Positions 22,365-49,793 of a stretch of 64,000 nucleotides of DNA are shown in pieces. The position numbers and the translations under genes were made by a program. Source of the stretch: an uncultured Eisenbergiella sp. (GTDB lineage: Bacteria; Bacillota; Clostridia; Lachnospirales; Lachnospiraceae); assembly GCA_947626995.1 (NCBI GenBank), contig CANQUI010000001.1:59234-123233 (forward strand), in the 5' to 3' direction. The notes below the pieces were generated by a model. That model saw nothing but the letters and a program-made list of their open reading frames with translations, searched no databases and was not told the origin of the DNA. How positions within the stretch are numbered: the first letter of the stretch is position 1; each line of letters starts with the position of its first letter.

Positions 22365-23963
22365 ATGAGACAAGGGCCGGAGGCAGATCATATCATTTTC
22401 ACCAGGAGCGAGATCCTGTTTTACGTGTTTTTTTGCGTGATGCTGTTTTCCAAAGGGATGGGCTGGTATGACGGGATGCCGCAATATCGGATCTGTCTGC
22501 TCATCGGCGCCGCATGTCTGATGGCGAAGCTGCTTTTGTCGCGTTACACGCTGCAGCAGTTTTGCATGGCGGCGGTTTTGGGGGGCCTGGGGCTGATCAG
22601 CTATCTGCTGTCTGGGGAAAAGGGAATGTTCGTCTGCATGATGGTCGTCATCGGCATGAAGGATGTGCCCGTGCGCCGGGCGTTTCTGGCGGGAGGCCTG
22701 GTATGGGGCGGCGTGTTTGCCTGCCGCGTCCTGCTTTTTTTGACCGGCATACAGCGGGGCATCCCGTTGGTGCACAATAAGCTGGGGCTGGGACATATTT
22801 TCCGCTGGAGTATGGGATATCCGCATCCCAATGTGTTTCATATCTCTTATGTGATCCTGACGGCGTTTTTGTTCTACCTGATCCGCTGGAATCAGAAAAA
22901 GAAATTGTTCGCGGCCGTTCTCGCCGCCTTTTTGGGCAATTGCCTGATCTTTCTGTACTCGGTAAGCTTTACGGGGTTTCTCCTGACTGGCATCTATCTG
23001 GCGGGAGTGGCCTATTTTGAACTGCGGCCGCGGTTTTTGAAATGGGAAAAACGGGGGATCCTATGCGTGTTTCCCCTCTGTCTGATATTTTCCCTGGCGG
23101 CGCCTTTTCTGCCTCAGGGCCGGCTGTTTGAGCTGCTCAATAAAATGATGAATACCAGGCTTTCCCTGTCCCGGTATTTTTTGTTTACCTATCCGGTTTC
23201 GCTCTTCGGACAGCGGATCACGGTGCAAAATTCGGATCTGACCATGGACAACTCCTATGTGTTTGCGCTGATGACGTATGGAGCGGTGCTCTTTCTTTTG
23301 TTGATGGGAATTTATTTCTTCCTGATCCGGTATATGGTAAGGGAAGAAAAAAGAAAGGAACTGGCCATTACGCTGGGGTTTCTGATCGCCGGCATTTCGG
23401 AACCGTTTTTGTTTAATACGTCGTTTAAAAATATCAGCCTGCTCTTTGTGGGACATTATCTCTATCATCAGGCGGGATATTTAAAGACCGGGCTTCCTGC
23501 CGTGCAGATCGGGATTTGGGACTGGGACAAAAGCACCGTCCGGATGCCGGAGACAGCGGCCGCATGGCTTTTTCGGCAAAAGGAGAGAGGAAAACAAATC
23601 CGGCGCGGGGCGGCAGGGCATAAGGCTCTTGTGACGGCCTTTTGCCTGACGGCCGGTCTTTGCGGCGGGCTCTTTTATGCAGAAAAGACGGAAGCGCCCC
23701 GCTCCTATCTGGTGCCTGTGGAGCTCTGTGATTTTTCACAACAGAAGCCTTTTAAGCTGACACAGCAGGAAAGAATCCGGGAGGAAGAGGCGGGCGCTTC
23801 GATCCCGGTTTTGGTGGATGACAAAACGCGATTGTATCGGTTCGACGGAAATCTGATCCTGCTGGAACGGCTGCGCGGAACGATGGGAGCCGTCCTCTTG
23901 TCCGGCCTGTGCGGTCTGATACCGGGCGTGGGCGTTTCGCTTTTACTGGAAAAAAGAAAGTAG
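22365..23963 (+). CDS. O-antigen polymerase-like membrane protein with C-terminal extension
   Basis: 532 residues. The first roughly 375 are hydrophobic with Wzy-like features: HNKLGLGHIFRWSMGYPHPN, then MMNTRLSLSRYFLFTYPVSLFG and LTMDNSYVFALMTYG, the same R-loop/LFG/D.SY..L..YG pattern as the protein at 7527. Past about residue 420 there is an added tail with one helix, an outer loop of about 65 residues (RSYLVPVELCDFSQQKPFKL), and a final helix ending in basic residues. That tail resembles Wzz/chain-length co-polymerase topology, but this is only suggestive. ATG 22365 has GGGGA seven bases upstream and its own promoter. First gene of the second operon. Confidence 0.72.
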   Translation: MRQGPEADHIIFTRSEILFYVFFCVMLFSKGMGWYDGMPQYRICLLIGAACLMAKLLLSRYTLQQFCMAAVLGGLGLISYLLSGEKGMFVCMMVVIGMKDVPVRRAFLAGGLVWGGVFACRVLLFLTGIQRGIPLVHNKLGLGHIFRWSMGYPHPNVFHISYVILTAFLFYLIRWNQKKKLFAAVLAAFLGNCLIFLYSVSFTGFLLTGIYLAGVAYFELRPRFLKWEKRGILCVFPLCLIFSLAAPFLPQGRLFELLNKMMNTRLSLSRYFLFTYPVSLFGQRITVQNSDLTMDNSYVFALMTYGAVLFLLLMGIYFFLIRYMVREEKRKELAITLGFLIAGISEPFLFNTSFKNISLLFVGHYLYHQAGYLKTGLPAVQIGIWDWDKSTVRMPETAAAWLFRQKERGKQIRRGAAGHKALVTAFCLTAGLCGGLFYAEKTEAPRSYLVPVELCDFSQQKPFKLTQQERIREEEAGASIPVLVDDKTRLYRFDGNLILLERLRGTMGAVLLSGLCGLIPGVGVSLLLEKRK

Positions 23964-23971
23964 GGTATGGG

Positions 23972-25867
23972 ATGGAAGAAGAACTGAAATACTGCAGGAT
24001 ACTGGGGACAAAGATCCACGTAATCACCATGGATAAGACCGTGGAATATCTGGACAGGCATCTGGAGCGGATACGGGGCGGATATGTGTGCGTCTCCAAC
24101 GTGCATACCACCGTTATGGCGTTTCGGGATCCGGATTATCAGAAAATCCAAAACGGCAGCGTACTGAATCTGCCGGACGGCAAGCCCCTGTCCATCGTGT
24201 GCCGTCACAGGGGATTCAAAGAGGCCGCCCGGGTGCCGGGACCGGATCTGATGCCGCGGATCTTTGCGCTTTCCGAAAAGAGGGGATACCGGCATTACTT
24301 TTACGGCAGTTCGCCGGAGACCTTAAAAAAACTGCGGGAGATGCTTCAAAAAACCTATCCGGATATGGTGATCGCCGGCATGGAATCCCCGCCTTACCGG
24401 CCGCTTTCCAGGGAGGAAGACGAAGCGGCGGTGGAGCGGATCAATGAAAGCAGACCGGATTTTATCTGGGTGGGGCTGGGCGCCCCCAAACAGGAAATCT
24501 GGATGGCCAAACACATGGGAAAGGTATCCGGCGTGATGCTCGGCGTGGGAGCGGGATTTGACTTTCTGGCAGGGACCGTGAAACGGGCGCCGAAATGGAT
24601 GCAGGAAGCCTGTCTGGAATGGCTGTTTCGGCTGCTGCAGGATCCCAGACGGCTGATCCCCCGATATGTGGACACCAATTTTACGTTTCTTCATGAGGTG
24701 GCCAGGGAAAACCGACGGCGCAGGAAGGAAAAGCCGTTTCGGATCGCCATGATCGGGCATAAACGGATCCCTTCCCGGGAGGGCGGCGTGGAAATGGTGG
24801 TGGATGCGCTGGCCACCCGGCTGGTGCGCATGGGATATCAGGTGGACGCCTACAATCGCTCCGGATATCATGTCTCCGGGAAACAGTTTGATAAGAGAAG
24901 GGGAAAGTATTATAATGGGATCCGGGTCTATACGATCCCGACTTTTAATTGCAGCAGCCTAAACGCCATCGTCTATGCGGCGCTGGCTTCCGTCCGGGCG
25001 CTGTTTGGCCGCTACGACGTGATCCATTTCCATGCGGAAGGCCCCTGCATTATGCTCTGGCTGCCGAAACTGTTCGGGATCCGGACGGTGGCGACGATAC
25101 ACGGGCTGGACTGGCAGCGTTCCAAATGGGGGAATTTTGCATCCGCCATGCTGCGGCGGGGGGAGAAAACCGCGGCGCGCTGTGCGGATGAAGTCATTGT
25201 GCTTTCCGAAAACATGCAGCGGTATTTTTGGGAAACCTATGGGCGCCGGACCGTTTTTATCCCCAACGGGATAGAAAGACCGGAGCGCAGAGATCCGGAA
25301 TTCATCCGGGAAACCTACGGCCTGAACGGACGGGATTATATTCTGTTTCTGGCGCGTATCGTGCCGGAAAAAGGACTGCATTACCTCATCGAAGCCTTTT
25401 TGGGCATCGAGACGGACAAGAAGCTGGTGATCGCCGGCGGCAGCAGCCATTCCCAGGAATATATGAAAAAGATTACGGATATGGCGACGCAGGACGAACG
25501 GATCCTTATGACCGGCTTTGTACAGGGAGAAATGCTGGCGGAGCTGTATTCCAACGCATACTGTTTTGTCCTGCCCAGCGATGTGGAGGGAATGGCTTTA
25601 AGCCTTCTGGAGGCCATGAGCTACGGAAACTGCTGCATCGTCAGCGACATCCGGGAAAATACGGAGGTCGTGGGAGAAAAGGCGCTGCGCTTTGAAAAAG
25701 GGAATGTAGAATCCCTGCGGGCGGTTTTAAAAAGGGCGCTGGACGAGGAGCGGCTGTGCGAACAATACCGTTTGGAAAGCGCCGACTATATTTGTCAGAA
25801 ATACGATTGGGATAAAGTCGTCTTGCAGACGGCGGCGCTGTATGCGGGAAAGGATAAAAACGCATGA
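23972..25867 (+). CDS. fused GT26 (WecG/TagA/CpsF) - GT4 glycosyltransferase
   Basis: 631 residues from ATG 23972. Residues 1 to about 245 form a complete GT26 domain: VSNVHTTVMAFRDPDYQK, LNLPDGKPLSIV, and WVGLGAPKQEIWMAKH. From about 265 a full GT4 protein follows: IGHKRIPSREGGVEMVVDAL, IIHFHAEGP-type acceptor motifs, LFLARIVPEKGLHYLIEA and the E-x7-E block VEGMALSLLEAMSYG. GT26 members usually add the second sugar (ManNAc-type) to a polyprenyl-PP-sugar, and the fused GT4 could add the next. The two normally occur as separate proteins. There is no sign of a sequencing fusion: the linker is continuous and charged. Confidence 0.9.
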   Translation: MEEELKYCRILGTKIHVITMDKTVEYLDRHLERIRGGYVCVSNVHTTVMAFRDPDYQKIQNGSVLNLPDGKPLSIVCRHRGFKEAARVPGPDLMPRIFALSEKRGYRHYFYGSSPETLKKLREMLQKTYPDMVIAGMESPPYRPLSREEDEAAVERINESRPDFIWVGLGAPKQEIWMAKHMGKVSGVMLGVGAGFDFLAGTVKRAPKWMQEACLEWLFRLLQDPRRLIPRYVDTNFTFLHEVARENRRRRKEKPFRIAMIGHKRIPSREGGVEMVVDALATRLVRMGYQVDAYNRSGYHVSGKQFDKRRGKYYNGIRVYTIPTFNCSSLNAIVYAALASVRALFGRYDVIHFHAEGPCIMLWLPKLFGIRTVATIHGLDWQRSKWGNFASAMLRRGEKTAARCADEVIVLSENMQRYFWETYGRRTVFIPNGIERPERRDPEFIRETYGLNGRDYILFLARIVPEKGLHYLIEAFLGIETDKKLVIAGGSSHSQEYMKKITDMATQDERILMTGFVQGEMLAELYSNAYCFVLPSDVEGMALSLLEAMSYGNCCIVSDIRENTEVVGEKALRFEKGNVESLRAVLKRALDEERLCEQYRLESADYICQKYDWDKVVLQTAALYAGKDKNA

Positions 25868-27066
25868 AGGTATTGATCGTCAATAAATTCCTGCATCCCA
25901 ACGGCGGATCGGAAACCTACATTTTCGAATTGGGCAGACAGCTTGCGCGCATGGGCCATTCGGTGCAATATTTCGGGATGGAGCATGAGGGGCGTATCGT
26001 GGGCAACCGCATCGGCTGCTATACGGACGACATGGATTTTCATTCGGGGAAATGGGAAAAGCTTTTCTATCCGTTCCGGATCCTGTATTCCCGTCAGGCG
26101 TCGGCCCGGATGAAAAAAGTGCTTTCGGATTTTGATCCGGACGTGGTGCATCTGAATAATTTTAATTTTCAGCTCACGCCGTCGGTGATCTATGCGGTGC
26201 GCAAATACGAAAAACGCACCGGAAAAAAGATTCGGATCGTCTATACGGCTCACGACTATCAGTTGGTTTGTCCCAATCATCAGCTGTTGGTTCCCGGCAC
26301 GGGGGAGTTGTGCACGCGCTGTCTGGGAGGCAGGCAGTGGAACTGCGCCAAATACCGCTGCATCCACAATTCCCGGGTAAAGAGCCTGCTGGGGAGCCTG
26401 GAGGGGAGGCTGTACGAGCGGCTGAAAACATACCGTTATCTGGATGTGATCGTCTGCCCCAGCCGCTTTATGGAAGGAATGTTGCGGCAAAACAGCACGC
26501 TTTGCGGGCGGACGGTGGTGCTGCACAATTTTATCGGCGCCATCGAACCTCCTGTAGCCGACAAGAAAGATTATGTGTTGTATTTCGGACGGTATTCCCG
26601 GGAAAAGGGAATCGATACGCTGCTGGAGGCCTGCCGGCGGCTGCCCCACATTCCTTTTGTGTTTGCGGGGAAGGGGCCGTTGGAGGAGCAGGTGAATTCC
26701 ATGGAGAATATCGAAAACAAAGGATTTTTAAACGGCCCGGAATTATACGCCCTCATCGCCGGTGCCCGCTTCACCGTTTTTCCGTCCGAGTGGTATGAAA
26801 ACTGTCCGTTTTCGGTGATGGAGTCCCAGGTCTGCCGGACGCCGGTGATCGCCTCCCGTCTGGGCGGGACGCCGGAACTGCTTTTGGAAGAAAAAACCGG
26901 GGAATTTTTTGAAGCGGGGAACGCAGCGCAGCTGGCGGAACGCATCCAAAAGCTCTGGGAAGACCGAAAGAAGCTGGCGCGGTATACGGAAAACTGCCGG
27001 GCGGTTTCCTTTGCCGGGGCGCCGCAATACTGTGAAAAACTGCTGCAACTCTATCAGGAGGGATGA
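25864..27066 (+). CDS. GT4 family glycosyltransferase
   Basis: 400 residues, ATGA overlap with the GT26-GT4 gene. The N-terminus VNKFLHPNGGSETYIFELGRQL is the Gly-rich acceptor-domain motif and the C-terminus has YFGRYSREKGIDTLLEA and SEWYENCPFSVMESQVCRTPVI, the GT4 donor-site and E-x7-E regions. A central Cys-containing stretch (CPNHQLL, then CTRCLGG, then CAKYRCIHNS) is typical of one EPS GT4 subgroup and may bind a metal structurally. It is cytoplasmic. The donor sugar is unknown. Confidence 0.9.
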   Translation: MKVLIVNKFLHPNGGSETYIFELGRQLARMGHSVQYFGMEHEGRIVGNRIGCYTDDMDFHSGKWEKLFYPFRILYSRQASARMKKVLSDFDPDVVHLNNFNFQLTPSVIYAVRKYEKRTGKKIRIVYTAHDYQLVCPNHQLLVPGTGELCTRCLGGRQWNCAKYRCIHNSRVKSLLGSLEGRLYERLKTYRYLDVIVCPSRFMEGMLRQNSTLCGRTVVLHNFIGAIEPPVADKKDYVLYFGRYSREKGIDTLLEACRRLPHIPFVFAGKGPLEEQVNSMENIENKGFLNGPELYALIAGARFTVFPSEWYENCPFSVMESQVCRTPVIASRLGGTPELLLEEKTGEFFEAGNAAQLAERIQKLWEDRKKLARYTENCRAVSFAGAPQYCEKLLQLYQEG

Positions 27067-27068
27067 GA

Positions 27069-28076
27069 ATGGCAAGAAGAACGTTATACGGAACCGTCAT
27101 CGTGACGTATCGCTGCAATGCGCGCTGTAATATGTGCGACTGTTTTAAGGATCCTTCCCGGCCGGAAGAGGAGATCACGTTAGAGGAGATCAAAAAACTG
27201 CCGGAGATGGCCTTTACCAATATCACGGGAGGAGAGCCGTTCATCCGGCGGGACATCCCGGACATCGTGAGGGAACTTTATAAAAAATCGGACCGGATCG
27301 TGATCTCCACCAACGGATATTTTACGGACCGGATCATCGCGCTGTGCAAAGAGTTCCCGCAGGTGGGCATCCGGATCAGCATCGAGGGCCTGCAGGAGAC
27401 CAACGATAAGATCCGCGGGATCCCGGACGGCTTTCAAAGAGGATATCAGACGTTAAAGACGCTGGTGGAAATGGGACACCCGGACGTGGGCTTTGGGATG
27501 ACCGTACAGGACATGAACTGCGAGGATCTGGTGCCGCTGTATCATATCGCCAACGACATGGGGATGGAATTTGCCACGGCCGCGCTGCATAATTCGTTCT
27601 ATTTTCGAAAGACGGACAATCGCATCGAAAACAAAAGGAAGGTGGCCGAAAATTTTGAGAAACTGATCAACGAGCTGCTGGCCAGTTCTTCCCCCAAAAA
27701 GTGGTTCCGCGCCTACTTTAATCACGGACTGATCAATTATATTTACGGGAACAAACGGCTGCTTCCCTGCGATATGTCCCAAAACGCCTTTTTTATCGAT
27801 CCGTTCTGCGACGTGATTCCCTGCAACGGCATGGAGAAAAAAGCGGTTATGGGCAATCTGCGCAGGCAAAGCTGGGAGGAGCTGTGGAATTCCAGGCAGG
27901 CGCAAAAGGTGCGCGAATGTACCAAAAACTGCGACCGGAACTGCTGGATGATCGGCAGCGTGTCCCCGGCCATGCACAAGTATATCTGGGTGCCGGGCTG
28001 GTGGGTGATCCGGCATAAGTTTTTCAAGGGAGGGAAATATTCATTAAATGAAAATGATTTCATACGGGAAAAATAA
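27069..28076 (+). CDS. radical SAM protein with C-terminal cysteine-rich (SPASM-like) region
   Basis: 335 residues from ATG 27069; the ribosome site AGGAGGG sits six bases upstream of it and directly abuts the alternative ATG 27063. C16-x3-C20-x2-C23 (RCNARCNMC) is the [4Fe-4S]/SAM triad, followed by NITGGEPFIRRDI and ISTNGYF. The C-terminal part has more Cys residues (LPCDM, FCDVIPCNG, CTKNCDRNCW), as in SPASM/Twitch proteins that hold extra Fe-S clusters. Its place between a GT4 and a GtrII-like transferase suggests sugar modification (epimerisation, dehydration or C-methyl chemistry), but peptide modification cannot be excluded. Strict anaerobiosis fits. Confidence 0.88.
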   Translation: MARRTLYGTVIVTYRCNARCNMCDCFKDPSRPEEEITLEEIKKLPEMAFTNITGGEPFIRRDIPDIVRELYKKSDRIVISTNGYFTDRIIALCKEFPQVGIRISIEGLQETNDKIRGIPDGFQRGYQTLKTLVEMGHPDVGFGMTVQDMNCEDLVPLYHIANDMGMEFATAALHNSFYFRKTDNRIENKRKVAENFEKLINELLASSSPKKWFRAYFNHGLINYIYGNKRLLPCDMSQNAFFIDPFCDVIPCNGMEKKAVMGNLRRQSWEELWNSRQAQKVRECTKNCDRNCWMIGSVSPAMHKYIWVPGWWVIRHKFFKGGKYSLNENDFIREK

Positions 28077-29689
28077 GCTCCGTCTTATGGGGGAAGAACT
28101 GGGAAGGTATCAAAAGGAATTGGGGATCCTGTTTGTCGTCGCTTTTGTCGTTTATTTTCCTTTCTGGGGAGGACAGCTGAATAATGCGGACGGTTTTTTA
28201 TATGGAGTGATCCGTCATGGACAGAATTATGGCTGGGAGGATGCGCAGGGAAGATTTTTGCTTCGCTGGCTGGATGAATGGAGGGACGGATTTATCATCC
28301 CGCCCATGATAATTGGGATCAGCATCCTCTTGCTTTTGATGTCGGCTGTGCTTATCTGGCATATTTTTTCCTGTGAAAGTACCGCAGAACGTATTCTGGT
28401 CGGGGCTTTTGTGATTTTCTCACCTTCTGTGATGAACACATTTACTTACTATTACTGTGCGGATTCCTATATGCTGTCTTATTTTCTGGCGGTACTTGCG
28501 GCGGCGTTGCTGATTCGAGGGGGGGGGTAAAATCTCGCTGGTCATCTCCGTGCTTTTGCTGATCTGCTCTATGAGCATTTATCAGGCTTATTTTGTGGTG
28601 ACGGTAATCCTGTGCCTCATATGGACGATTCGGGAGATTTTATCAAATAGATGGGAATGGAAAGCGCTGGCGGGGAGGATCCTTCGACAGGTTTTTGGAG
28701 GAATTGCCGCATGTCTTGGGTATTTATTCTTGTTGTTTTTGCTGGAACGGACAGGCTATCTTGGACTTACAAAAACCCGGGGAATGAACAGGATGTTTCA
28801 GAATATGTTTCTATGGCTGCTGCAATCCGTAAAAGACGCCTATCGTGTATTTTATGAATACTATTTTACGGATGTCCTGATCTGCAATTCCTGGAGAAGG
28901 AGAGACTTTTTTAATGCGATTGTCCTGTTGCTGATCCTTTTTTCACTGGGGATCCTTTTCAAAGAAAGGAAAACACACTCTCTTGTCAATTTGGGGCTTC
29001 TGGTCTGTCTGGTGTCGTTTTTCCCGATCTCTCTGACGCTGATCGTGATTCTCGCTCCGGGAGCGTCCGTTTATGCGGAAACGGGCATGTTGATGCTGAC
29101 GGGAATGAATTATTTCTATATTTTTTTGCTGTTGCTTATGTCCGCAATCAAAAAGAAATCAGCCGGCTTTCGGTTGATCCAAACAGCCGCCGTAGGAGTA
29201 TGTTCGGTGCTGCTTTTGATTCAGATCGTTTTTGCGGGCGTTTTTGCGAAGTCGATTCAGATGGAGCAGACAAAGGTGCAGATGTTGGCGTATCAGATAG
29301 AAAACAGGATAGAAACTCTGGACGATTATGCGTCAGGACAGACGGTGCTTGTAACGGGGAGACCACAATGGGGCAATTATCCCGCAACGCAGGATCGGAC
29401 CGGCAATATTACAAAGGGTATGATCAGCGCCTATACGCTCACTTTTGGCGCGGATGAGCAGGTGAGCGCAGGTTGGATCAGTCTGTTTGCGTATTTTTGC
29501 GGAGTACGATATGAAGAATGTAATGCGGAGGACAGAAATTGCATTTTGGCCTCCAAGGAATTCGCCCGGATGAACGATTTCCCTGCAAAGGATTCTGTGA
29601 AAAGGATAGGGAATGTAATCGTAGTCAGGCTCAGTCCTGGGGTGGATACGATCCAGCGAAAGCTGAAGGAAGCGGAAAACGGAGTATGA
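28048..29689 (+). CDS. GtrII-like membrane glucosyltransferase, split by a G9 tract (probable phase-OFF)
   Basis: Two ORFs, 28048-28530 (160 residues) and the open frame around 28550-29689, are the two halves of one protein. The first frame runs into nine G and stops at once at TAA 28528. Removing one G (G8) joins them into one 546-residue protein reading LLIRGGGKISLVISVLLL across the join. The N-terminal half (NNADGFLYGVIRHG, RFLLRWLDEWRDG, SPSVMNTFTYYYCADSYMLS) and SIYQAYFVV after the join match GtrII-type membrane glucosyltransferases, which use Und-P-sugar to modify exported glycan. ATG 28048 overlaps the radical SAM gene; AGGGAGGG lies 13 bases upstream. Slippage is the likely switch; a plain mutation or a base-calling error is the alternative. 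Confidence 0.8.
28519..28527 (+). repeat. G9 homopolymer, putative slippage (phase-variation) tract
   Basis: Nine consecutive G bases inside the coding region of the GtrII-like gene. Read in the upstream frame they give Gly-Gly-Gly followed by TAA; with eight G the gene is open to 29689. This is one of only two G runs above six that I found in the window. Confidence 0.9.
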
Positions 29690-29690
29690 C

Positions 29691-30782
29691 ATGAAGGTTC
29701 TGATGCTGGTAAACTGGAAAATGGAATATAAAGACGCTGTGCCGGAGGACAAACAGCCGCCGGATTATTATGTGAAAGGCGTTCCCTACTGGTTTTTCCG
29801 CTATTTTAAAGACACAAAGGACTGGGACGTGGACGTGGTGGACTGCCGTTCGTTCGGGGCGCTGGAGCGCCTGGAACAAGAGAAGATCCGGTTTTATATC
29901 TGGCAGACGATAAAATGCCTGCCGCGGTTGAAGCGCTATGACCTTGTCCTTTCCCACGGCATGCAAAGCGGCATCGTCCTGTGTTTGTGGCGGCGTCTGT
30001 TTGGCAAAGGAACGTACCGGCATGTGGTCTTTGATATCGGGGCGTTTAACAGCGCCCGAGAATCGGGGGGCTCCTTGCGCCTCATGCAGTTTGCGGGCAA
30101 ATCCCTGGACGGCGTGATCTACCACACCAGAGAGCAGCGGGGCTATTATGAGAGATGTCATCCGTGGCTTTTGGATAAGATCCGGTATATTCCCTTTGGG
30201 ACGGATACGGATTTTTTTACGCCGGGCGCAGAAAAGAAAGCGGAGGGAGCGCCCTATATACTTTGTCTTGGTCATAACAAGCGGGACTGGGAGACGCTGC
30301 TTGCCGCCTACGCGCTCCTGCGCAAAAGATGGGACCACATACAGCGGCTGCCCGACTTAAAGCTGATCGGAAAAGGAAAGATCGACGCTGCCATAGACGG
30401 CGTGACTGCGCTGCCGTCCGTACCGGTGCGGCGTATGATGGAAGAAATGGAAAACGCCTGTTTTTGCGTCCTGCCCCTGCAGTCCTTTCCCTACTCTTTC
30501 GGCCAGATGACGCTTTTGCAGCAGATGCTTTTCCAAAAGGCGGTGATTGCCGCGGATGTGCCTTCCCTGCGGGACTATGTGCAGGACGGACAGGACGCCC
30601 TGTTATACGAACCGCAGAACGCGGCCATGCTGGCGGAACAAATGGAACGGCTCATTCTGGATCCAACGCTGTGCCAACAGATCGGCGGCAGGGCGGCGCA
30701 ATCGGTGCGCACCAAGTGGAACGAGCGGCGGATGGCCGGGGAAATACAGGAATATCTGACGACGGTATTGCAGTCGTCGTAA
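29691..30782 (+). CDS. GT4-like glycosyltransferase
   Basis: 363 residues, starting one base after the stop of the split GtrII-like gene. GT-B layout: VLSHGMQSGIVLCLW and VVFDIGAFNSARE in the N-terminal half, ILCLGHNKRDWETLLAAYALL and FPYSFGQMTLLQQMLFQKAVI in the C-terminal half. The usual E-x7-E glutamates are replaced (SFGQMTLLQQ), a pattern of one GT4 subgroup, so the mechanism or donor contact differs from the other GT4 proteins here. It is cytoplasmic and has no membrane helix. Donor unknown. Confidence 0.8.
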   Translation: MKVLMLVNWKMEYKDAVPEDKQPPDYYVKGVPYWFFRYFKDTKDWDVDVVDCRSFGALERLEQEKIRFYIWQTIKCLPRLKRYDLVLSHGMQSGIVLCLWRRLFGKGTYRHVVFDIGAFNSARESGGSLRLMQFAGKSLDGVIYHTREQRGYYERCHPWLLDKIRYIPFGTDTDFFTPGAEKKAEGAPYILCLGHNKRDWETLLAAYALLRKRWDHIQRLPDLKLIGKGKIDAAIDGVTALPSVPVRRMMEEMENACFCVLPLQSFPYSFGQMTLLQQMLFQKAVIAADVPSLRDYVQDGQDALLYEPQNAAMLAEQMERLILDPTLCQQIGGRAAQSVRTKWNERRMAGEIQEYLTTVLQSS

Positions 30783-30812
30783 CTACCGACGGTATCGGAG
30801 GGGGAGGACAGG

Positions 30813-31850
30813 ATGGAAGACCCTATCGTAAGCGTGATCGTGCCGGTCTACAATGTGGAAAAATATCTGGAAAGATGTATCCGTTCCCTGCAGAAACAGA
30901 CGCTCAAACAGATCGAGATCCTGCTCATTGACGACGGATCCACGGACGGCAGTGGACAACTTTGCGATACGCTGGCAAAGACGGACGAGAGGATCCATGT
31001 GCGGCATAAAAAAAACGCGGGACAGGGGCTTGCCAGAAACGACGGGCTTTTCGCCGCGAAAGGCGATTATGTGCTGTTTGTGGACTCGGACGATTATATT
31101 GAACCGGATACCTGCCTTCGCCTGTCCCGGGTGATGCGGGAGCAGAAGGCGGATCTTTGCTGCTTTGGCTACCAGATCGAGACGCCGGAAGGAGAGCTGT
31201 TTTATCGGGCGCGTCTGACGGCGGACTGCTATGAGGGCGAAGCGGTGCGCAGGCGCTTTGCGCTGCATTTTTTCGGAGACGATCCAAAAGACGAAAAGCT
31301 GCGGGGCGTCTCGGCCTGCATGACCATGTTTCGCCGCAGCATCATTCAAGAGCACGGAATCCGGTTTCCCTCGGAACGGGAGTTTTTAAGCGAGGACACC
31401 ATTTTCAATCTGGATTTTTGCCTGTACGCGCAAAAAGCCGTGGTGCTGCCGTCCTATTTTTACCATTACTGCCAGAATCCGGATTCTTTTTCCCATGCGT
31501 ACCGCCCGGATCGCTTCGCGCTTACCGTGGTGCTTTGCCGGACGCTGTTTTCGTACGCTGCGCGCTACGGAGTGGAGGAAGAAACCAAAAACCGCATCCG
31601 CATGTCGCTGTGGGTCAGCCTGATGGAGTGTATCAAACAGGAGACGAAAAGGATCGGGCAGGTCCCTTTAAAGACCGTCCGGCAGAGAGTGAAAGAATTC
31701 TGCGACGATCCGTTGACTCAGGATGCGCTGAACGGATTGTCCGCCGGGGAATTTCCGGCAAAACAGAGGATGTTCCGGATGCTGCTGCGCCGCCGGATGT
31801 TTTTGGCGGTGCTGTTTGCCGCATGGCTTCGTAACCGACAGGGATTATAA
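30813..31850 (+). CDS. GT2 family glycosyltransferase
   Basis: 345 residues. VSVIVPVYNVEKYLERCIRS, LLIDDGSTDGSGQLCD, KKNAGQGLARNDGL and the DxD site LFVDSDDYI are textbook GT2. GAGGGGGAGGACAGG immediately upstream supplies a strong ribosome site. The C-terminal part has FLSEDTIFNLDFCLYAQ and a helical tail, usual for capsule GT2 proteins. It lies between a GT4 and another GT2. Sugar specificity is not deducible. Confidence 0.9.
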   Translation: MEDPIVSVIVPVYNVEKYLERCIRSLQKQTLKQIEILLIDDGSTDGSGQLCDTLAKTDERIHVRHKKNAGQGLARNDGLFAAKGDYVLFVDSDDYIEPDTCLRLSRVMREQKADLCCFGYQIETPEGELFYRARLTADCYEGEAVRRRFALHFFGDDPKDEKLRGVSACMTMFRRSIIQEHGIRFPSEREFLSEDTIFNLDFCLYAQKAVVLPSYFYHYCQNPDSFSHAYRPDRFALTVVLCRTLFSYAARYGVEEETKNRIRMSLWVSLMECIKQETKRIGQVPLKTVRQRVKEFCDDPLTQDALNGLSAGEFPAKQRMFRMLLRRRMFLAVLFAAWLRNRQGL

Positions 31851-31863
31851 GAAAGGACCGAAC

Positions 31864-32877
31864 ATGGGAAAAGAACCTTTGATCAGTGTGATCATGTCGG
31901 TTTATAACGACAGGGATTATATCCGACAGGCGCTGGACAGCCTGTTTGCCCAGACTGAACAGGACTTTGAGATCATCCTTGTGGACGACTGTTCCACGGA
32001 CGATACGGTTTCGATCATAGAGACATATCAGGACGAGCGGATCAGGCTGTACCGGAATGAAAAAAACCTCGGACTGACCCGAAACCTAAACCGAGCGTTA
32101 CAGCTGGCCCGGGGACAGTTTATCGCCCGGATGGACGGGGACGACATCTGCAGGCCCCGGCGCTTTGAAAGGCAGCTTGCCTTTCTGCGCGCCAATCCGT
32201 CGCTGATGCTGATCAGCTGCCGGACCCACATGTTTGGACAGCAGGATCTGATCTCGGATATATCCGGGAGCGGAGAAAAACTCAAGGCGATGATGCTGGT
32301 CCGTCCGGTGCTGGCCCATCCGGGCTTTATGATGCGGGCGGAGCTGATCCGCCGGGAGGGATTCTCCTATGATGAGACCTTTCGAAGCGCCCAGGATTAT
32401 GACTTCGCGGCCAGGGTAGCGCAGAAATTTCCCATCGGCGTGACGCAGGAGGTTCTGTTGGACTACCGCGTACACAAAAAGCAGGTGTCTTGTCAGGACG
32501 GCGAGAAACAGTTTTCCAACGCGGACCGGGTCAGGCAGATGCAGCTGGAGCGGCTGGGCGCAGCGCTGACTCCTTTGCAGTGGGCGGCCTATCGGGACTG
32601 GGCCGGGGAAAAAAGAAACTGCGCAAAGGACGTCTATCGGCAGGCGGCCTCCGTAATTGATACGCTGATGGCCGCCAATTCGCGGACAGGCCTTTACGAT
32701 CCGGACACGCTGGAGACGGAGCTGAAAAAACTGCTGTTTCAGTGGATGCTGCGAAGCCGCTCCTGGTCCGTCTGCCTGCAGGCCGTCACGGTATGCGGCG
32801 TTTCCGGACGGAACCTGAAGCTGCTTACGGAAAAGGCGGGGCAGATCCTGTCGCATAAGCGGAAAGGGGAAGCATAA
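31864..32877 (+). CDS. GT2 family glycosyltransferase
   Basis: 337 residues from ATG 31864, AAAGGA six bases upstream; the track start at 31816 is within the previous gene. ISVIMSVYNDRDYIRQALDS, ILVDDCSTDDTVSII, LTRNLNRALQLARGQFIARMDGDD give the full GT2 signature, with the DxD as DGDD. SAQDYDFAARVAQ is the conserved acceptor-side motif. Cytoplasmic. One base separates it from the ATP-grasp gene, so the two are coupled. Confidence 0.9.
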   Translation: MGKEPLISVIMSVYNDRDYIRQALDSLFAQTEQDFEIILVDDCSTDDTVSIIETYQDERIRLYRNEKNLGLTRNLNRALQLARGQFIARMDGDDICRPRRFERQLAFLRANPSLMLISCRTHMFGQQDLISDISGSGEKLKAMMLVRPVLAHPGFMMRAELIRREGFSYDETFRSAQDYDFAARVAQKFPIGVTQEVLLDYRVHKKQVSCQDGEKQFSNADRVRQMQLERLGAALTPLQWAAYRDWAGEKRNCAKDVYRQAASVIDTLMAANSRTGLYDPDTLETELKKLLFQWMLRSRSWSVCLQAVTVCGVSGRNLKLLTEKAGQILSHKRKGEA

Positions 32878-32878
32878 G

Positions 32879-33766
32879 ATGGAGAAGGAACCAATCTCGC
32901 TGAAACGAAGACTATATCGAAAACTCTGCCGGCTCTTTGGGAAACGGATGCCGGACCGGCTGTATCTGAAGCTGCTTTATCAGGTCCGCATGGGGAAACC
33001 CCTGCATCTGGATCCGCCGGAGGATTTTAACGAAAAGCTGCATTGGCTGAAGCTGTATGACCGAAACCCGGCCTATTCCAAAATGGCGGACAAGTACGAG
33101 GTCAGAAGCTTTGTGAAGGAAAAACTGGGAGAAGAATATCTGATCCCGCTTCTGGGCGTATGGGACGACGTGGACGAAATCGACTTTAACGCTCTGCCGG
33201 ATCAGTTTGTGCTCAAATGTACCCACGATTCCGCCAGCGTCTGTATCTGTAAGGACAAAAAGACGTTTGACCGCAGGGCGGTATCGGACCGGCTCAGACA
33301 GGCCATGGGCAGAAATTATTTTTATGCCGCCCGGGAATTCCCGTATCGGGACATAACCCCGAGAATCCTTGCGGAGACCTACATGGTGGATGAATCCGGC
33401 ACGGAGCTGAAGGATTACAAGGTATATACCTTTCACGGAGAACCCTACCTGATTCAGGTGGACTTTGACCGGTTTGAGAACCACAGGAGGAATCTCTATA
33501 CGACGGACTGGCAGTTTATTGATGAAACCATCGAATATCCCAAGGATCCTACGGTCCAAATTCCCAGGCCCCAGAGGCTTTCCGAAATGCTGGAATGTGC
33601 GAAAAAGCTGGCGGAGGGGACGCGCAGCCTGCGCACGGATTTTTACAGTATCAACGGGAAGATTTATTTTGGAGAGATCACCTTTTATCAGGAGGCCGGA
33701 TTCGCCCACTTTGAACATCAGGCTTACGCAAAGAAACTGGGAGAGATGATCCGGCTGCAGGATTGA
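32879..33766 (+). CDS. TupA-like ATP-grasp family protein
   Basis: 295 residues of the TupA-like ATP-grasp family seen in teichuronic acid and capsule clusters. Markers are FNEKLHWLKLYDR, MADKYEVRSFVKEKLG, FVLKCTHDSASVCICKDK, LKDYKVYTFHGEPYLIQVD and FYSINGKIYFGEITFY. ATP-grasp enzymes form C-N or C-O acyl bonds through an acyl phosphate, so this protein may attach an amino acid or other carboxylate to the glycan, although some members are annotated as glycosyltransferases. Last gene of this operon; a 498-base gene-free stretch follows. Family placement is solid, the reaction is inferred. Confidence 0.85.
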   Translation: MEKEPISLKRRLYRKLCRLFGKRMPDRLYLKLLYQVRMGKPLHLDPPEDFNEKLHWLKLYDRNPAYSKMADKYEVRSFVKEKLGEEYLIPLLGVWDDVDEIDFNALPDQFVLKCTHDSASVCICKDKKTFDRRAVSDRLRQAMGRNYFYAAREFPYRDITPRILAETYMVDESGTELKDYKVYTFHGEPYLIQVDFDRFENHRRNLYTTDWQFIDETIEYPKDPTVQIPRPQRLSEMLECAKKLAEGTRSLRTDFYSINGKIYFGEITFYQEAGFAHFEHQAYAKKLGEMIRLQD

Positions 33767-33837
33767 GTGCACAGAATTACAGAAATCGTTTCATGGCGAT
33801 AATTTGACGGTCATAGAGTTCTAAAGTATCGGTTTTT

Positions 33838-33990
33838 TGTTATCTTGTATTGAAAAATCATGGTTTCCTTGGTATATTTAACTATGATTTTTAAGTTGCA
33901 AAGAAGATTTCGGAATCCTTTTGCAGATAACCCTACAAATGGGATCATATTACAAAGCGGGAAAAAAATGAAGAAGAAATCGTGAATAAT
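33838..33990 (+). pseudogene. remnant 1 of a GT-C paralog promoter and leader
   Basis: This stretch of the 498-base gap (33767-34264) resembles the region ahead of the intact GT-C gene at 49794. tattgaaaaatc, then ttccttg, then tatatttaactatgattt and gaagaag occur in the same order and spacing, and a ggaaaaaaatgaagaagaaa segment matches the first codons (MEKKMRKKP). It then diverges into a frame with stops. I read it as the promoter plus a few codons left after deletion of a copy. The rest of the gap, outside the two remnants, holds no gene I can support. Confidence 0.6.
33850..33878 (+). promoter_or_regulatory. promoter, TTGAAA-17-TATATT
   Basis: TTGAAA, 17 bases, TATATT, followed by taactatgattt. 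Boxes, spacing and downstream bases are almost the same at 49703-49731 ahead of the intact GT-C paralog. It may now drive the heptose operon from about 390 bases upstream. Confidence 0.7.
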
Positions 33991-34048
33991 TTCACCAAAA
34001 TCACTTTTTTTGGGGGTTGAGAAATGTTTAGAATTTATGCAATAAGCC

Positions 34049-34077
34049 TTGAAATTAGTATTTTATTTTGGTATGTT
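34049..34077 (+). promoter_or_regulatory. promoter, TTGAAA-17-TATGTT
   Basis: Second promoter-like copy in the gap, with the same -35 and 17-base spacer as the one at 33850 and a slightly weaker -10. It is the nearest recognisable promoter to the heptose operon, about 190 bases ahead of its first ATG. Confidence 0.6.
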
Positions 34078-34235
34078 TATACCTGAACCGTACGGCTTTT
34101 TATTTTTGTGGCATGGGAAAGGGATACCATAACTAAGGTGAAGAAACGGGGATCCGATTTCTATTCGTCCTGCTTTTATTGGACGCCGGTTATTTTGTTT
34201 CGCGGACAAAACCCGACTATCTGGAATAAAAGCAC
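34049..34235 (+). pseudogene. remnant 2 of a GT-C paralog promoter and N-terminus
   Basis: A second copy. TTGAAA-17-TATGTT (34049-34077) precedes DNA that from about 34137 aligns with the N-terminal helix of the 49794 gene. The clearest stretch, tcgcggacaaaacc followed by tatctggaata, is nearly identical to the bases coding for SRTKPVYLEY there. Similarity ends at about 34235, 30 bases before the dehydratase ATG. No open frame survives. Confidence 0.65.
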
Positions 34236-34264
34236 AAAAAACAAGAGACAGGAGCAAAAGTAGA

Positions 34265-35242
34265 ATGAAAAAAGTACTCATTACAGGAATCACCGGATTC
34301 GCGGGAAGTCATTTGACAGACTATCTTTTGGAAAATACCGACTACGAGATCCATGGAATAAAACGGATGAACTCCAATCTGAGAAACATCCGTCACGTGC
34401 TGGACAGGATCAGCCTGCACGACGGGGATCTGCTGGACGAGAGCAGCCTGATCAACATCCTGCAAAACGTGCAGCCGGATCAGATCTATCATCTGGGCGC
34501 ATTGAGCTGGGTTACGCCTTCCTGGACCATGCCTGCGGTATATATGCAGACAAACGCCATTGGCACCATCAATCTGTTTGAGGCGATGCGTGTGACGGGA
34601 TGCCATGCACGGGTGCTGACCAGCGCCACGCCGGAAGAATTCGGGGATGTTCCTCCCGAGATGATCCCGATTACGGAGGAGACAAGGATTGCGCCCATCA
34701 ATCCCTATGCCGCCAGCAAGGCGGCGCAGGATATGGTCTGCATCACTTATCATGCCAGCTACGGGATGGATATTGTCAGGACCAGAGCGTTTAATCATGA
34801 AGGGCCGCGCCGGGATATCCACGGCGCCATCGCATCGTTCGCATATCAGATCGCCCGGATCGAAAACGGGCTGCAGGAGCCGGTCATCAAGGTAGGAAAC
34901 CTTGGCGCCACCCGCAATTTTACAGATGTAAGAGATACGGTCCGCGCCTACTATCTGGCGATGGAAAAGGGCGTGAGCGGTGAATTGTATGTGATCGGTA
35001 CGGATCAGATTCATACGATGAAAGAAATGCTGGATATGCTGGTGGCCTCTTCCGAGAGGGCGGCCGACATCCGGATCGAAGTGGATCCCGCCCGGGTAAG
35101 ACCGACGGAACTGATGACTTTTATCGGCGATTACAGCAAGTTCAGGTCCCTGACGGGCTGGGAGCGTCGGTACAGCCTGGAGGAGACATTAGAGAGCGTA
35201 CTGAACTATTGGCGCGATTTTGTCAAAAAAGGGATGTATTAG
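34265..35242 (+). CDS. GDP-sugar 4,6-dehydratase-like SDR (GMD family; possibly GDP-heptose)
   Basis: 325 residues. Rossmann motif TGITGFAGSHL, catalytic pair NPYAASK (Y-x3-K), and TSATPEEFGDVP where dehydratases carry the Thr-x-Glu catalytic site. RTRAFNHEGPRR and VGNLGATRNFTDVRD are typical of the GMD/RMD group. It is shorter than usual GMD (about 370) and lacks its long C-terminal part. Because the next genes make GDP-D-glycero-D-manno-heptose, GDP-heptose is a likely substrate, as for DmhA/WcbK; GDP-mannose is the alternative, which would lead to fucose or rhamnose. The start at ATG 34265 has CAGGAG upstream. First gene of the heptose module. Confidence 0.82.
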   Translation: MKKVLITGITGFAGSHLTDYLLENTDYEIHGIKRMNSNLRNIRHVLDRISLHDGDLLDESSLINILQNVQPDQIYHLGALSWVTPSWTMPAVYMQTNAIGTINLFEAMRVTGCHARVLTSATPEEFGDVPPEMIPITEETRIAPINPYAASKAAQDMVCITYHASYGMDIVRTRAFNHEGPRRDIHGAIASFAYQIARIENGLQEPVIKVGNLGATRNFTDVRDTVRAYYLAMEKGVSGELYVIGTDQIHTMKEMLDMLVASSERAADIRIEVDPARVRPTELMTFIGDYSKFRSLTGWERRYSLEETLESVLNYWRDFVKKGMY

Positions 35243-35266
35243 ACAATGGACCCGGGAGGACGGCGC

Positions 35267-36181
35267 ATGAAAATACTGATCACAGGAGCAGGGGGATTTA
35301 TAGGCAAAAGACTGGCCAAAAGGCTGTCGGAAATACCGGGGATGGAAATTTACGGCCTTTCCCGGGAAGGAACAAATCTGTTTCCGGGCGTTGTGCCTGT
35401 CCGGTGCGATATACTGGATGCCGACGGAGTGGAACGGACGTTTCAAAACTGCCGGTTTGACAGAGTCATTCACCTTGCCGCCATTACGGAACATAAGGAA
35501 GTCGTAGACCGGAAGCTAAAAACGTTGGAAATCAATTTGCAGGGGACCATGAACCTTCTGGACAGTTTTAACAGACACTGTACGGGAAGCCAGTTCCTCT
35601 ATGCGTCCACGGGAAAGGTTTACGGAGAAACCGATGAAATGCCCATATCGGAACGGGCGCTGGTCAATCCCACGACCGTTCTGGGAAAGGCAAAGCGGAT
35701 TACGGAAAATATCGTGGATTTTTATGCGGTGCCAGCCAACCGATATTTAATTTGCCGGATCTTCAATATCTATGGGGAATTTCAGAAAAGGAATTTCGTG
35801 GTGCCGACCATTCTGGATCAGTTGGACAGTCCGGCGATCCACCTCGGGAACCTGCATGACAAGCGGGATTATCTGTATATTGACGATCTGATCGCTGCGT
35901 TTCTTGCCTGCATCCGTTCTCCTTTCAAATTTGAGAACGTGGACTATGTAAATATCGGAAGCGGGACGGCTGTCAGCGTGGCCGATATTCTGAAAGAAAT
36001 GGAGACGCTTCTGGGAAGAAAGCTGCAGGTGGAAACGGATGCTTCCCGGTTTCGTAAGGATGAGACATCGGTGGAGATCTGCGACCATGGCAGGCTCACC
36101 GAACGGACGGGATGGGAACCGGAGTTTTCGCTGCGGGAAGGGATGGAGAGAACGCTGAAAAAAGAGGGGCGTCTTCCATGA
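35267..36181 (+). CDS. NAD-dependent epimerase/reductase-like SDR lacking the catalytic Tyr
   Basis: 304 residues from ATG 35267, GGGAGGA six bases upstream; ATG 35246 is the longer option. Rossmann motif TGAGGFIGKRLAKRL, then HLAAITEHKEVVD, YASTGKVYGE and IFNIYGEFQKRNFV follow the extended-SDR pattern. The segment that should read Y-G-x-S-K-x-x-x-E reads LGKAKRITE, so the catalytic tyrosine is Leu (codon ctg) while Lys and Glu are kept. It could use another acid, act with the upstream dehydratase, or be a structural partner. By position it would be the reductase or epimerase completing a GDP-6-deoxy sugar. Confidence 0.75.
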   Translation: MKILITGAGGFIGKRLAKRLSEIPGMEIYGLSREGTNLFPGVVPVRCDILDADGVERTFQNCRFDRVIHLAAITEHKEVVDRKLKTLEINLQGTMNLLDSFNRHCTGSQFLYASTGKVYGETDEMPISERALVNPTTVLGKAKRITENIVDFYAVPANRYLICRIFNIYGEFQKRNFVVPTILDQLDSPAIHLGNLHDKRDYLYIDDLIAAFLACIRSPFKFENVDYVNIGSGTAVSVADILKEMETLLGRKLQVETDASRFRKDETSVEICDHGRLTERTGWEPEFSLREGMERTLKKEGRLP

Positions 36182-36212
36182 CGTTTGGGATGCAGTGTGA
36201 AAAGGCGAAAAG

Positions 36213-38249
36213 ATGACCAAAAAGACAGGGATCCTGTGTATCCTGATTCTGATTCTGTCAGGCATCGGATATGGAGCAGCATGGATCAGGCCGGCCTATC
36301 TGGAATATCAGACGATAGGCGGGCAGGAGGGAGCAATCGTTTCTGCGGAAGACGGGAAACAAGAAAATGTCGTGTCATTTCGGATGCCGTATGATATTTT
36401 ATGCGGCGTAGTGACGGATTCGGATAACGGCGCCCAATCGTATACGATTGTAGAGGCAAAGACCCAAAAGACCCTTTTGAAAAGCAGGGCAGAGAATGGG
36501 GTTTTTGTGCAAAGGCTTACCCATAACGTGCCGGTAAAGAAGAATGAAATCTATGAACTGCATCTGGAGGCAGGCAAAGCTCCAAAACCGTCCGGGGTGG
36601 GGATCGGGGGCGGGCCGCTCCTTCGGATCTACGGGGGCGACCGCAGCCGGTGGTGGTTTGCATGGACGACTTTGCTTGCCGTCTTGCTGTTTGCCTTTGG
36701 ATTCTGCCGGATCCGACTGATGAAGAAGGGGCGGGATTGGAGACAGAGCCGGGTTTTTTGCAGTCTGCTTCTTTTCTTTCTTATTTTATCCCTTTGGTCC
36801 GTATTTGCCTTACAGGACCGCCATGGCGACGAAACCGCCGTGATTATGGAAGGCATGCTTCTGGCAAAGGGGAAGGTGCTGTATCGGGACTGCATTGAAC
36901 AGCATATGCCGTTGGCCTCCTATTTGTGCGCGGTCTTTGCCGGATTGGGGGCGGAAACAATTTTGCAGTTTCGTCTTTCCTGGTATCTGTTGTTATCCGC
37001 GATCTGGGGATGCCTGTACTGGCGTCATGGGGGCCGTTTCAAAAAAAGGATATTTTTTCTTCCCCTCCTGCATGCCCTGTTCGTTCCTTCCGGCGTGGTC
37101 CCCTATGGGTACGTGTTACTGGGAGACGGCATATTTGAGATCAGTATGATCGCTTTTATTCTGGAATTTCTCCGGTACCTGGAGGACCAAAGGCTGGGCT
37201 GGGGACGTTGCGCTATTTTCTCGGTCTGTTTCCTGGGATGTTTCGGTACGGAGTTTGTCAGCCTTTACGCCCTGTTTGGCCTTTTCCTGTTCGCGCTTTA
37301 TAAAGAGGCGGGATATTGGAAAGGGACAGGCCCCGGGATCCGAAAGGTGATCGGGCGATATGGCAGGCTGGCGATCTGCTTTTTGATACCGGCCGCTGCC
37401 GTTGCCGCATATTTTATGTCTCATCACGCCCTCCACGATCTGTATGATCAAACCTACCGGTTTAATACGGAAGTTTATTCCGCGTATAATGGAGGACTCG
37501 GGATCAATAAGATCACGCCGTTTTTTTACGGGATTCAAAACTGCCTCAAATTTGCGGTCATGCAGATCCGATCTTTTTTGAACCCGTACGGTCTGATGCG
37601 TCTGCTGATATTCGCGGGGGCTGCGTTCTCCGTATTTTCGCTGATAAAGAGCAAAAGATATGAGACCGCGACCTGTCTTGGTTTGTGTATTTGCCTGTGC
37701 GCCATCCGATTGATCAACAATAAGAATGATCTTTCTTATCACGGGGCCTGCGCGTGGGGGCTTATGATTCTTGCTGCGGCGCTTTATTGGAAGCCGTTTC
37801 CGGGAAGAAGCGGAAGGATTTTGACCGCCTGTGTTCTGCTTCTGGCGGTTGGGATTTATACGGGATCCTTTTATAAGGCGCTGTGCAACCCGGAACCGAC
37901 GGTCTCGGACCTTGAGCACGCGGTGGTGGAACGGACGGAGGAAGGAGAAGCCGTTTTTATGGACGCTTTTGATACCCTCTCCCCCTACCTGCTCTATCGG
38001 AACCGGTATCCGGCCAACCGGCTGCTTTGGATGCTGCCGTGGTACCTGGACCGGTATGAACAGACGGCGATCGACGATTTAAACGCGCATCAGCCCGGAC
38101 TTGTTATTTTTGATGAATCGAGAAGAATATGGGGATCCCCGGTGCGTTTCGATGCACTGCCGGATGCGCTGCGGGAGAATTATACCCAACTTTCCGATGA
38201 TGAGGCGGATGGCTGGAAGTATCGGGTCTGGGTGCGAAACGCTCCATGA
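36213..38249 (+). CDS. GT-C fold membrane glycosyltransferase, paralog 1
   Basis: 678 residues. One N-terminal helix, then an outer segment of about 110 residues (RPAYLEYQTIGG, SFRMPYDILCGV, NVPVKKNEIYELHL) ending at RIYGGDRSRWWFAW, then a multi-helix domain. The outer loop RHGDETAVIMEGMLLAKGKVLYRDCIEQHMP looks like the GT-C acidic motif followed by a YRD..hP lipid-phosphate site. The tail LLYRNRYPANRLLWMLPWYLDRYEQ is strongly shared with the proteins at 47474 and 49794. It should transfer a sugar from Und-P to the exported glycan. No G tract is present here. AAAGGCGAAAAG precedes ATG 36213. Confidence 0.75.
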   Translation: MTKKTGILCILILILSGIGYGAAWIRPAYLEYQTIGGQEGAIVSAEDGKQENVVSFRMPYDILCGVVTDSDNGAQSYTIVEAKTQKTLLKSRAENGVFVQRLTHNVPVKKNEIYELHLEAGKAPKPSGVGIGGGPLLRIYGGDRSRWWFAWTTLLAVLLFAFGFCRIRLMKKGRDWRQSRVFCSLLLFFLILSLWSVFALQDRHGDETAVIMEGMLLAKGKVLYRDCIEQHMPLASYLCAVFAGLGAETILQFRLSWYLLLSAIWGCLYWRHGGRFKKRIFFLPLLHALFVPSGVVPYGYVLLGDGIFEISMIAFILEFLRYLEDQRLGWGRCAIFSVCFLGCFGTEFVSLYALFGLFLFALYKEAGYWKGTGPGIRKVIGRYGRLAICFLIPAAAVAAYFMSHHALHDLYDQTYRFNTEVYSAYNGGLGINKITPFFYGIQNCLKFAVMQIRSFLNPYGLMRLLIFAGAAFSVFSLIKSKRYETATCLGLCICLCAIRLINNKNDLSYHGACAWGLMILAAALYWKPFPGRSGRILTACVLLLAVGIYTGSFYKALCNPEPTVSDLEHAVVERTEEGEAVFMDAFDTLSPYLLYRNRYPANRLLWMLPWYLDRYEQTAIDDLNAHQPGLVIFDESRRIWGSPVRFDALPDALRENYTQLSDDEADGWKYRVWVRNAP

Positions 38250-38252
38250 CCG

Positions 38253-38286
38253 GATGCCTGTCCCGGTTCCGGCATCAAACATTTTT
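38253..38286 (+). terminator. possible weak terminator or attenuator hairpin
   Basis: GATGCC, a 12-base loop and GGCATC form a six-base-pair stem between the GT-C gene and gmhA, followed by aaac and five T. The stem is short and the U-tract interrupted, so only partial termination is plausible. Confidence 0.3.
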
Positions 38287-38315
38287 CGAAGGAAGAGAAA
38301 GGAATATTCACCGAT

Positions 38316-38903
38316 ATGGAATATCAGGAGATGATCCGAAAATATATCGCAGATGAGATGGATGTGCTCAGCAGGCTGGATGTGGAGGCGATCAACGCCG
38401 TGATGCGGGAGTTAAAAGGCGCGTTTGACCGCGGCAGCACCGTTTACGTATTCGGCAACGGCGGCAGCAGCGCCACGGCCAGCCATTATCAGAATGATTT
38501 CAATAAAGGGATCTCGGAGCATACGGAGCAAAAATTCCGTTTCTGCTGTCTGAACGACAATATCGCCACGGTCATGGCGGTTGCCAACGATATCGGGTTT
38601 GAAGAGGTGTTTCGTTTTCAGCTGCGCGGGCGGTTAAAGCCGGGAGATCTGGTGTTGGCAATTTCCGGAAGCGGCAACAGCAAAAATGTGCTCAATGCGG
38701 CGGAATATGCCAAAGAGCAGGGAAATACCGTCGTGGCGATCACCGGATATGACGGCGGCAGGCTGGATGAACTGGCGGACTGTCATTTGCATGCCCCCGT
38801 TATGAGCATGCAGATCACGGAAGATATTCATATGATCTTTGATCATCTGATGATGAGTATATTCTGTAAAACCATGTGTCAGATCGATCATTTGAAAAAA
38901 TAG
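38316..38903 (+). CDS. gmhA: sedoheptulose-7-phosphate isomerase (GmhA-like SIS protein)
   Basis: 195 residues. FGNGGSSATASHYQNDF and LAISGSGNSKNVLNAAEYAKEQG are the two phosphosugar-binding SIS motifs, and QITEDIHMIFDHLMMSIF is the C-terminal helix with the conserved Glu/His of GmhA. It converts sedoheptulose 7-phosphate to D-glycero-D-manno-heptose 7-phosphate in the cytoplasm. Length matches GmhA (about 190). The downstream HddA-like kinase and the HddC-GmhB fusion complete the route to GDP-heptose, which supports this over other SIS functions. Confidence 0.9.
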   Translation: MEYQEMIRKYIADEMDVLSRLDVEAINAVMRELKGAFDRGSTVYVFGNGGSSATASHYQNDFNKGISEHTEQKFRFCCLNDNIATVMAVANDIGFEEVFRFQLRGRLKPGDLVLAISGSGNSKNVLNAAEYAKEQGNTVVAITGYDGGRLDELADCHLHAPVMSMQITEDIHMIFDHLMMSIFCKTMCQIDHLKK

Positions 38904-38951
38904 ACGAAAGACGAAGACGGGAGATATTGTCTTTCCTGCTGTGTGGCAGCG

Positions 38952-38976
38952 CATATTTACCTATGATTATGGCCAG
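38952..38976 (+). promoter_or_regulatory. degenerate copy of the shared promoter box
   Basis: In the 151-base gap after gmhA, catatttacctatgatta resembles the tatatttaactatgatt found at the GT-C promoters. An upstream TTGTCT is 19 bases from CATATT, so promoter strength is doubtful. It may mark where a promoter/leader unit once lay ahead of the GT2 gene. Confidence 0.35.
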
Positions 38977-39054
38977 TCGGTTTTTTATCGTTAATTTGCG
39001 GGAAAATAATGATTGCGTCAGCACAATGCCAAATGAGAAAGGATGAGGGAAATC

Positions 39055-42124: not shown

Positions 42125-42125
42125 A

Positions 42126-43589: not shown

Positions 43590-43591
43590 AA

Positions 43592-45094: not shown

Positions 45095-45127
45095 CGGTCG
45101 CCATGCAAAATAAAAAGGAGGCAGAAA

Positions 45128-46075: not shown

Positions 46076-46082
46076 ACAGAAG

Positions 46083-49702: not shown

Positions 49703-49731
49703 TTGAAAAATCAGGGCTTCCTTGTTATATT
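49703..49731 (+). promoter_or_regulatory. promoter for GT-C paralog 3, TTGAAA-17-TATATT
   Basis: TTGAAA, 17 bases, TATATT. The ATG at 49737 and the ORF-track start at 49722 lie at or before the expected transcription start, so the true start must be further downstream. Nearly the same sequence occurs at 33850-33878. Confidence 0.72.
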
Positions 49732-49793
49732 TAACTATGATTTTGAAATTGCGAAGAAGGGCACGGAACCAGTTTATGAAGGATAATACAAAA

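Follow-up and report, generated by a model that had tools for sequence, protein, structure and literature searches.

The window, by which we mean the whole 64-kb stretch of DNA analysed, is the end of contig C1 in a draft genome of an uncultured Eisenbergiella species (2.50 Mb, 95% complete, 125 contigs), and it contains a polysaccharide locus (Table 1). Pfam assignments within the locus include a WecG/TagA-GT4 fusion, GT2 and GT4 enzymes, a TupA ATP-grasp protein, GDP-mannose dehydratase-type epimerases and a nucleotidyltransferase-HAD fusion; no structured RNA (Rfam) or tRNA was found in the window. The radical SAM/SPASM protein encoded just upstream of the GtrII-like gene is 87-92% identical across 80 Lachnospiraceae loci and forms a conserved anchor near glycan clusters.

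Table 1. Coordinates of the features discussed, given as positions in the window
Feature	Position	Strand	Basis
Polysaccharide locus around the GtrII gene	22365..47387	+	Pfam
Radical SAM/SPASM protein just 5' of the GtrII gene, overlapping its start	27063..28076	+	
GtrII-like glucosyltransferase gene (PF14264), interrupted by the first G9 tract; product of 546 residues in phase	28048..29689	+	Pfam on both parts
G9 tract within the GtrII gene, OFF phase	28519..28527	+	Direct sequence reading
TAA stop met immediately in the OFF phase	28528..28530	+	Direct sequence reading
Glycosyltransferase directly 3' of the GtrII gene	29691..30782	+	
Intact membrane protein paralog of 678 residues, tract-free	36213..38249	+	
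Membrane protein gene (~721 residues), interrupted by the second G9 tract	47474..49640	+	
Second G9 tract, OFF phase, 17 codons past the ATG	47525..47533	+	
Intact tract-free paralog; GGC GGC GGT (Gly-Gly-Gly) at the tract site	49722..51956	+	

The GtrII-like gene is divided by nine consecutive G residues followed at once by a TAA stop, exactly where the original prediction had placed them. At the observed tract length, the reading frame (28048-28530) closes after 160 residues, the state referred to here as OFF, while the other phase is open through to 29689 with no additional stop. Each part separately exceeds the PF14264 curated cut-off of 30 bits (63.6 and 47.4 bits, respectively), and the two are collinear on the profile, covering positions 20-118 and then 130-311, which bears out the earlier proposal that the two ORFs join as one GtrII-like protein. 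An alignment of ~30 homologues at ~25% identity confirms the joined frame on either side of the tract; the coding sequence is otherwise intact, as had been claimed. In the joined frame, a strongly conserved S-x-G-x-Y-Q-x-Y motif starts just 3' of the tract, and the tract itself encodes part of a short hydrophilic loop linking one membrane helix to the next, a region in which the homologues are variable. The repeat is unbroken and lies inside the ORF, and its length sets the frame, an effect observed directly.

No relative of solved structure was found for the GtrII protein by sequence, and its product is a predicted transferase that would add one sugar to the surface polysaccharide. An SD-like sequence, AGGGAGGG, precedes the ATG at 28048, and none stands ahead of the GTG at 28550, the first start of the downstream piece; because of this absence, the OFF state probably lacks the second GtrII half. 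Polarity could also affect the glycosyltransferase gene immediately downstream while the GtrII gene is OFF.

The only further run of at least seven G residues in the window is a second G9 tract, located 19 kb from the first and in the same polysaccharide locus. This tract breaks a large membrane protein gene near its start, leaving a 33-residue peptide that ends at a TGA (47573-47575). The broken protein shares 56% and 51% identity with two intact paralogs in the window, one of which encodes three glycines at the tract site and has the same spacing as the broken copy from that site to a conserved P-V-Y-L-E-Y motif. The glycine codons and the equal spacing together fix which phase of the broken copy is the intact one, and therefore both G9 tracts of the window are displaced from the intact phase in one and the same direction. 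Both genes are broken solely at their G9 tracts and are otherwise intact over 389 and ~700 codons.

Tract length in the window departs from what shorter runs predict. The counts fall by a factor of ~0.22 with each extra G (217 G4, 45 G5 and 9 G6 runs, with no G7 or G8), so that ~0.12 runs of nine or more would be expected and two are observed (P ~0.007). Two of the four G9 runs in the genome also fall within the window, which makes up 2.6% of the genome (P ~0.004). A shuffle test on G8 alone in the window gave no significant result, owing to a general avoidance of G runs. Genome-wide, the eight runs of at least eight G are unremarkable in number, and only five sit in apparently intact or joinable genes. 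Three of these five are G8 tracts that keep the frame: one is in the gene for a membrane protein of 712 residues, another in that for a sugar-transfer ATP-grasp protein (PF14397), and the third in a glycoside hydrolase gene; the remaining three of the eight are non-coding or lie within a doubtful gene. The strength of the case is in the placement of the tracts, not in their number.

Placement is also non-random in sister species, sampled as one genome per species, with the reading frame checked at each tract in the regions examined. Runs of at least eight G occur in all 13 genomes of the genus; G209 has 33 of them and G207 about eight or nine. A tract lies inside the ORF or at its start in 6 of the 15 acyltransferase-3 genes of G209 (P ~1e-9, assuming ~3,800 genes) and in 3 of the 10 of G207 (P ~2e-6, assuming ~2,950 genes). 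Further tract-bearing genes encode FkbM methyltransferases, MBOAT acyltransferases, GT8 and GT2 enzymes, a sugar transferase and an epimerase. Sister-species tract genes are concentrated in surface-structure functions, and the focal locus is likewise glycan-related. Both phases are represented: a G11 FkbM gene (G209 C6) and a G10 acyltransferase gene (G207 C4) are in frame, and two MBOAT genes (G208 C12 and G201 C69), an epimerase gene (G209 C27) and an acyltransferase gene (G207 C100) are out of frame. No orthologous coding genes with differing tract length were found: a BLAST of tract flanks recovered just one such case, an intergenic element whose run is G8, G9 or G10.

Taken together, these features make it probable that the G9 runs are contingency tracts for slipped-strand phase variation, most likely acting as reversible ON/OFF switches. 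Replication slippage in living cells would gain or lose one G in the tract, and cell lineages would then alternate between a complete GtrII-type transferase and the 160-residue stub. The second tract would toggle the membrane protein likewise, and two tracts in one locus would allow up to four surface-glycan combinations. Phage or host selection may favor such variation. The ON/OFF switch of the original prediction gains support from the tract anatomy, the second G9-broken gene, the in-frame tracts elsewhere in the genome and the enrichment in sister-species glycan genes, while its notion of a single switch gives way to at least two in the locus.

Several points count against phase variation, the ordinary genome-wide number of G runs among them. 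MutS and MutL are both encoded in the genome, and loss of mismatch repair was accordingly rejected; the pair should slow slippage at nine G residues, and switching may therefore be slow, as with the G10 tract of Bifidobacterium breve (PMC9187656). Campylobacter jejuni differs in this respect, as it is not known to have the MutS/MutL repair pair. In addition, no close GtrII homologues with a tract or with other tract lengths were found in the 13 genus or 200 family genomes; the nearest GtrII relatives are ~27% identical and have no tract.

The alternative that survives best, though unlikely, is recent gene decay, by which each G9 run would mark an irreversible frameshift in a gene in the course of being lost. 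A G run is an ordinary hotspot for frameshifts, and the same genome has a G8 run in an apparently shortened phosphoesterase gene. Decay does not readily account, however, for two large genes of one locus that are broken at G9 and nowhere else, nor for the enrichment of intact, in-frame tracts in the glycan genes of sister species.

Long G runs extend beyond the genus. Among 200 family genomes, one per genus, 51 contain G10 runs, complete genomes included, and the distribution is uneven, with none in most genomes and ~20 in each of two. In the loci examined, these runs are found in surface proteins, in promoter spacers and in membrane proteins of glycan function, the last in one phase or the other. 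On a 3.5 Mb contig (L298; G149 C1:519700-531000), two adjacent, large, paralogous surface proteins each carry a G10 right after the N-terminal leader, and both are out of frame in the assembly. Intergenic G9 or G10 tracts lie between TTGACA-like and TATAAT-like boxes at five loci (L222, L228, L236, L246 and L073), which are candidate phase-variable promoters.

These genomes bear on a second alternative, which we consider quite improbable: an assembly or base-calling error, with the true tract one G shorter and both genes simply intact. The genome is a draft in 125 pieces, and reference homopolymer lengths can be wrong, as for bbr_0113 of Bifidobacterium breve (PMC9187656). Yet the same offset occurs at two independent sites while the three G8 tracts of the same assembly noted above are in frame, and complete genomes also hold out-of-frame G10 tracts. 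The presence of a long tract within a glycan gene stands even if its length is wrong. The occurrence of tracts in complete genomes likewise argues against a short-read artefact. A dark-cycle artefact in particular, replacing other bases with G one for one, was rejected as a general cause on the grounds that tracts occur in complete genomes and tend to fall at glycine- or purine-rich sites, and it is further contradicted by the frame shifts at the two window tracts. Finally, RNA polymerase is prone to slip on long homopolymers, and slippage at the G run during transcription or translation might yield some full-length protein, bypassing the frameshift with no genetic switch involved, but this is very improbable, as it leaves the scatter of tracts over many glycan genes, in different phases, unexplained.

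Several other family tracts merit description in their own right. CotH-like proteins of Lachnospiraceae (L170, L175, L189 and L206; named by eye) contain in-frame G9 runs at differing positions, and tract-free CotH-like paralogs are purine-rich at the tract sites; the tracts seem to have arisen repeatedly. A conserved non-coding element, CTATATAATGTATT-G8..10-TTACGAGTATTATAATAG, is common to several genera (L006 at G000 C17:34989-34997, L100, L102, L104, L216 and L235) and lies 3' of an ftsH-like gene and 5' of an amylase-like gene on the opposite strand, both named by eye; no Rfam match was found for L006 and three of its relatives. One reduced or incomplete family member (G146; L262-L275) has 19 G10 runs, many in apparent housekeeping genes (MurB-, AroC-, DapB- and UvrD-like, named by eye) and often where glycine stretches are native, which departs from the placement in surface genes seen in other genomes.

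Long G runs in these bacteria also often share a 3' flank. T is the next base after 27 of 34 G9 runs in the genus, mostly with A after it, compared with T after 215 of 1,600 G4 runs (P ~2e-17); the count for G8 runs is 15 of 40. Among family G10 runs, a sample dominated by a few tract-rich genomes, T follows in 64 of 86, versus 44 of ~150 G10 runs elsewhere in the phylum, where flanks were counted by hand (P ~3e-11). Both window tracts have the 3' TA. Because the flank is found outside coding sequence as well as within it, and is not tied to a single codon phase, an amino-acid effect is not its cause. Nor is selection for an instant stop codon supported as the cause, given that TAT is the commonest triplet and that TA appears in both frames and at promoters. 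It is conceivable, though rather doubtful, that the surface genes and promoters of Lachnospiraceae host poly-G switches maintained across the whole family, and that a process specific to the lineage creates or preserves them; its trace would be a 3' TA on long runs, at coding and promoter sites alike, not on short ones, and much rarer on the G10 runs of other families in the phylum.

Lachnospiraceae dominate among gut bacteria; should many of the polysaccharides and proteins on their surface flicker with tract length, annotation from a single genome would often score switchable genes as broken, and both phage susceptibility and immune recognition would vary inside one strain. The mechanism itself is already known, from poly-G genes of Campylobacter and Neisseria and from B. 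breve pili; for its occurrence in Lachnospiraceae or their glycan loci, no earlier report of poly-G phase variation was found in open-literature searches, which reach just a portion of what is published.

The GtrII family is typified by phage-borne O-antigen glucosylation genes. The gene described here resembles them in that its joined frame matches the family profile along most of the length, and differs in its setting, a Lachnospiraceae polysaccharide locus. The promoter-spacer tracts of other Lachnospiraceae resemble the poly-G of the Neisseria meningitidis porA promoter (PMC3639595); both tracts of the window differ from it in lying within coding sequence. A closer parallel in glycan genes is found in Campylobacter jejuni, in which a change from G8 to G9 switches the glycan gene Cj1295, so that runs as long as those of the window are known to switch there (PMC3068675). 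Like the Lachnospiraceae tracts, those of the C. jejuni flagellin-glycan genes are intragenic (G8-G10), set the frame by their length, cluster in surface-glycan loci and are seen in both states (PMC3068675). C. jejuni is Gram-negative and its switching has been demonstrated, whereas the Lachnospiraceae tracts are known here from their sequence. For a Gram-positive gut anaerobe, the relevant comparison is B. breve, where G-tract slippage in the pilus genes bbr_0113 and bbr_1889 has been measured by deep sequencing and a G10 tract is far stabler than a G11 tract (PMC9187656). These tracts lie in actinomycete pilus genes, not in glycan genes, and share with those of the window an intragenic position (G10-G12 in B. 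breve) and ON/OFF control by frame (PMC9187656). The remark in the original prediction that reports of such switches are scarcer for Gram-positive anaerobes accordingly needs qualifying, as the B. breve pilus tracts provide a direct experimental precedent (PMC9187656).
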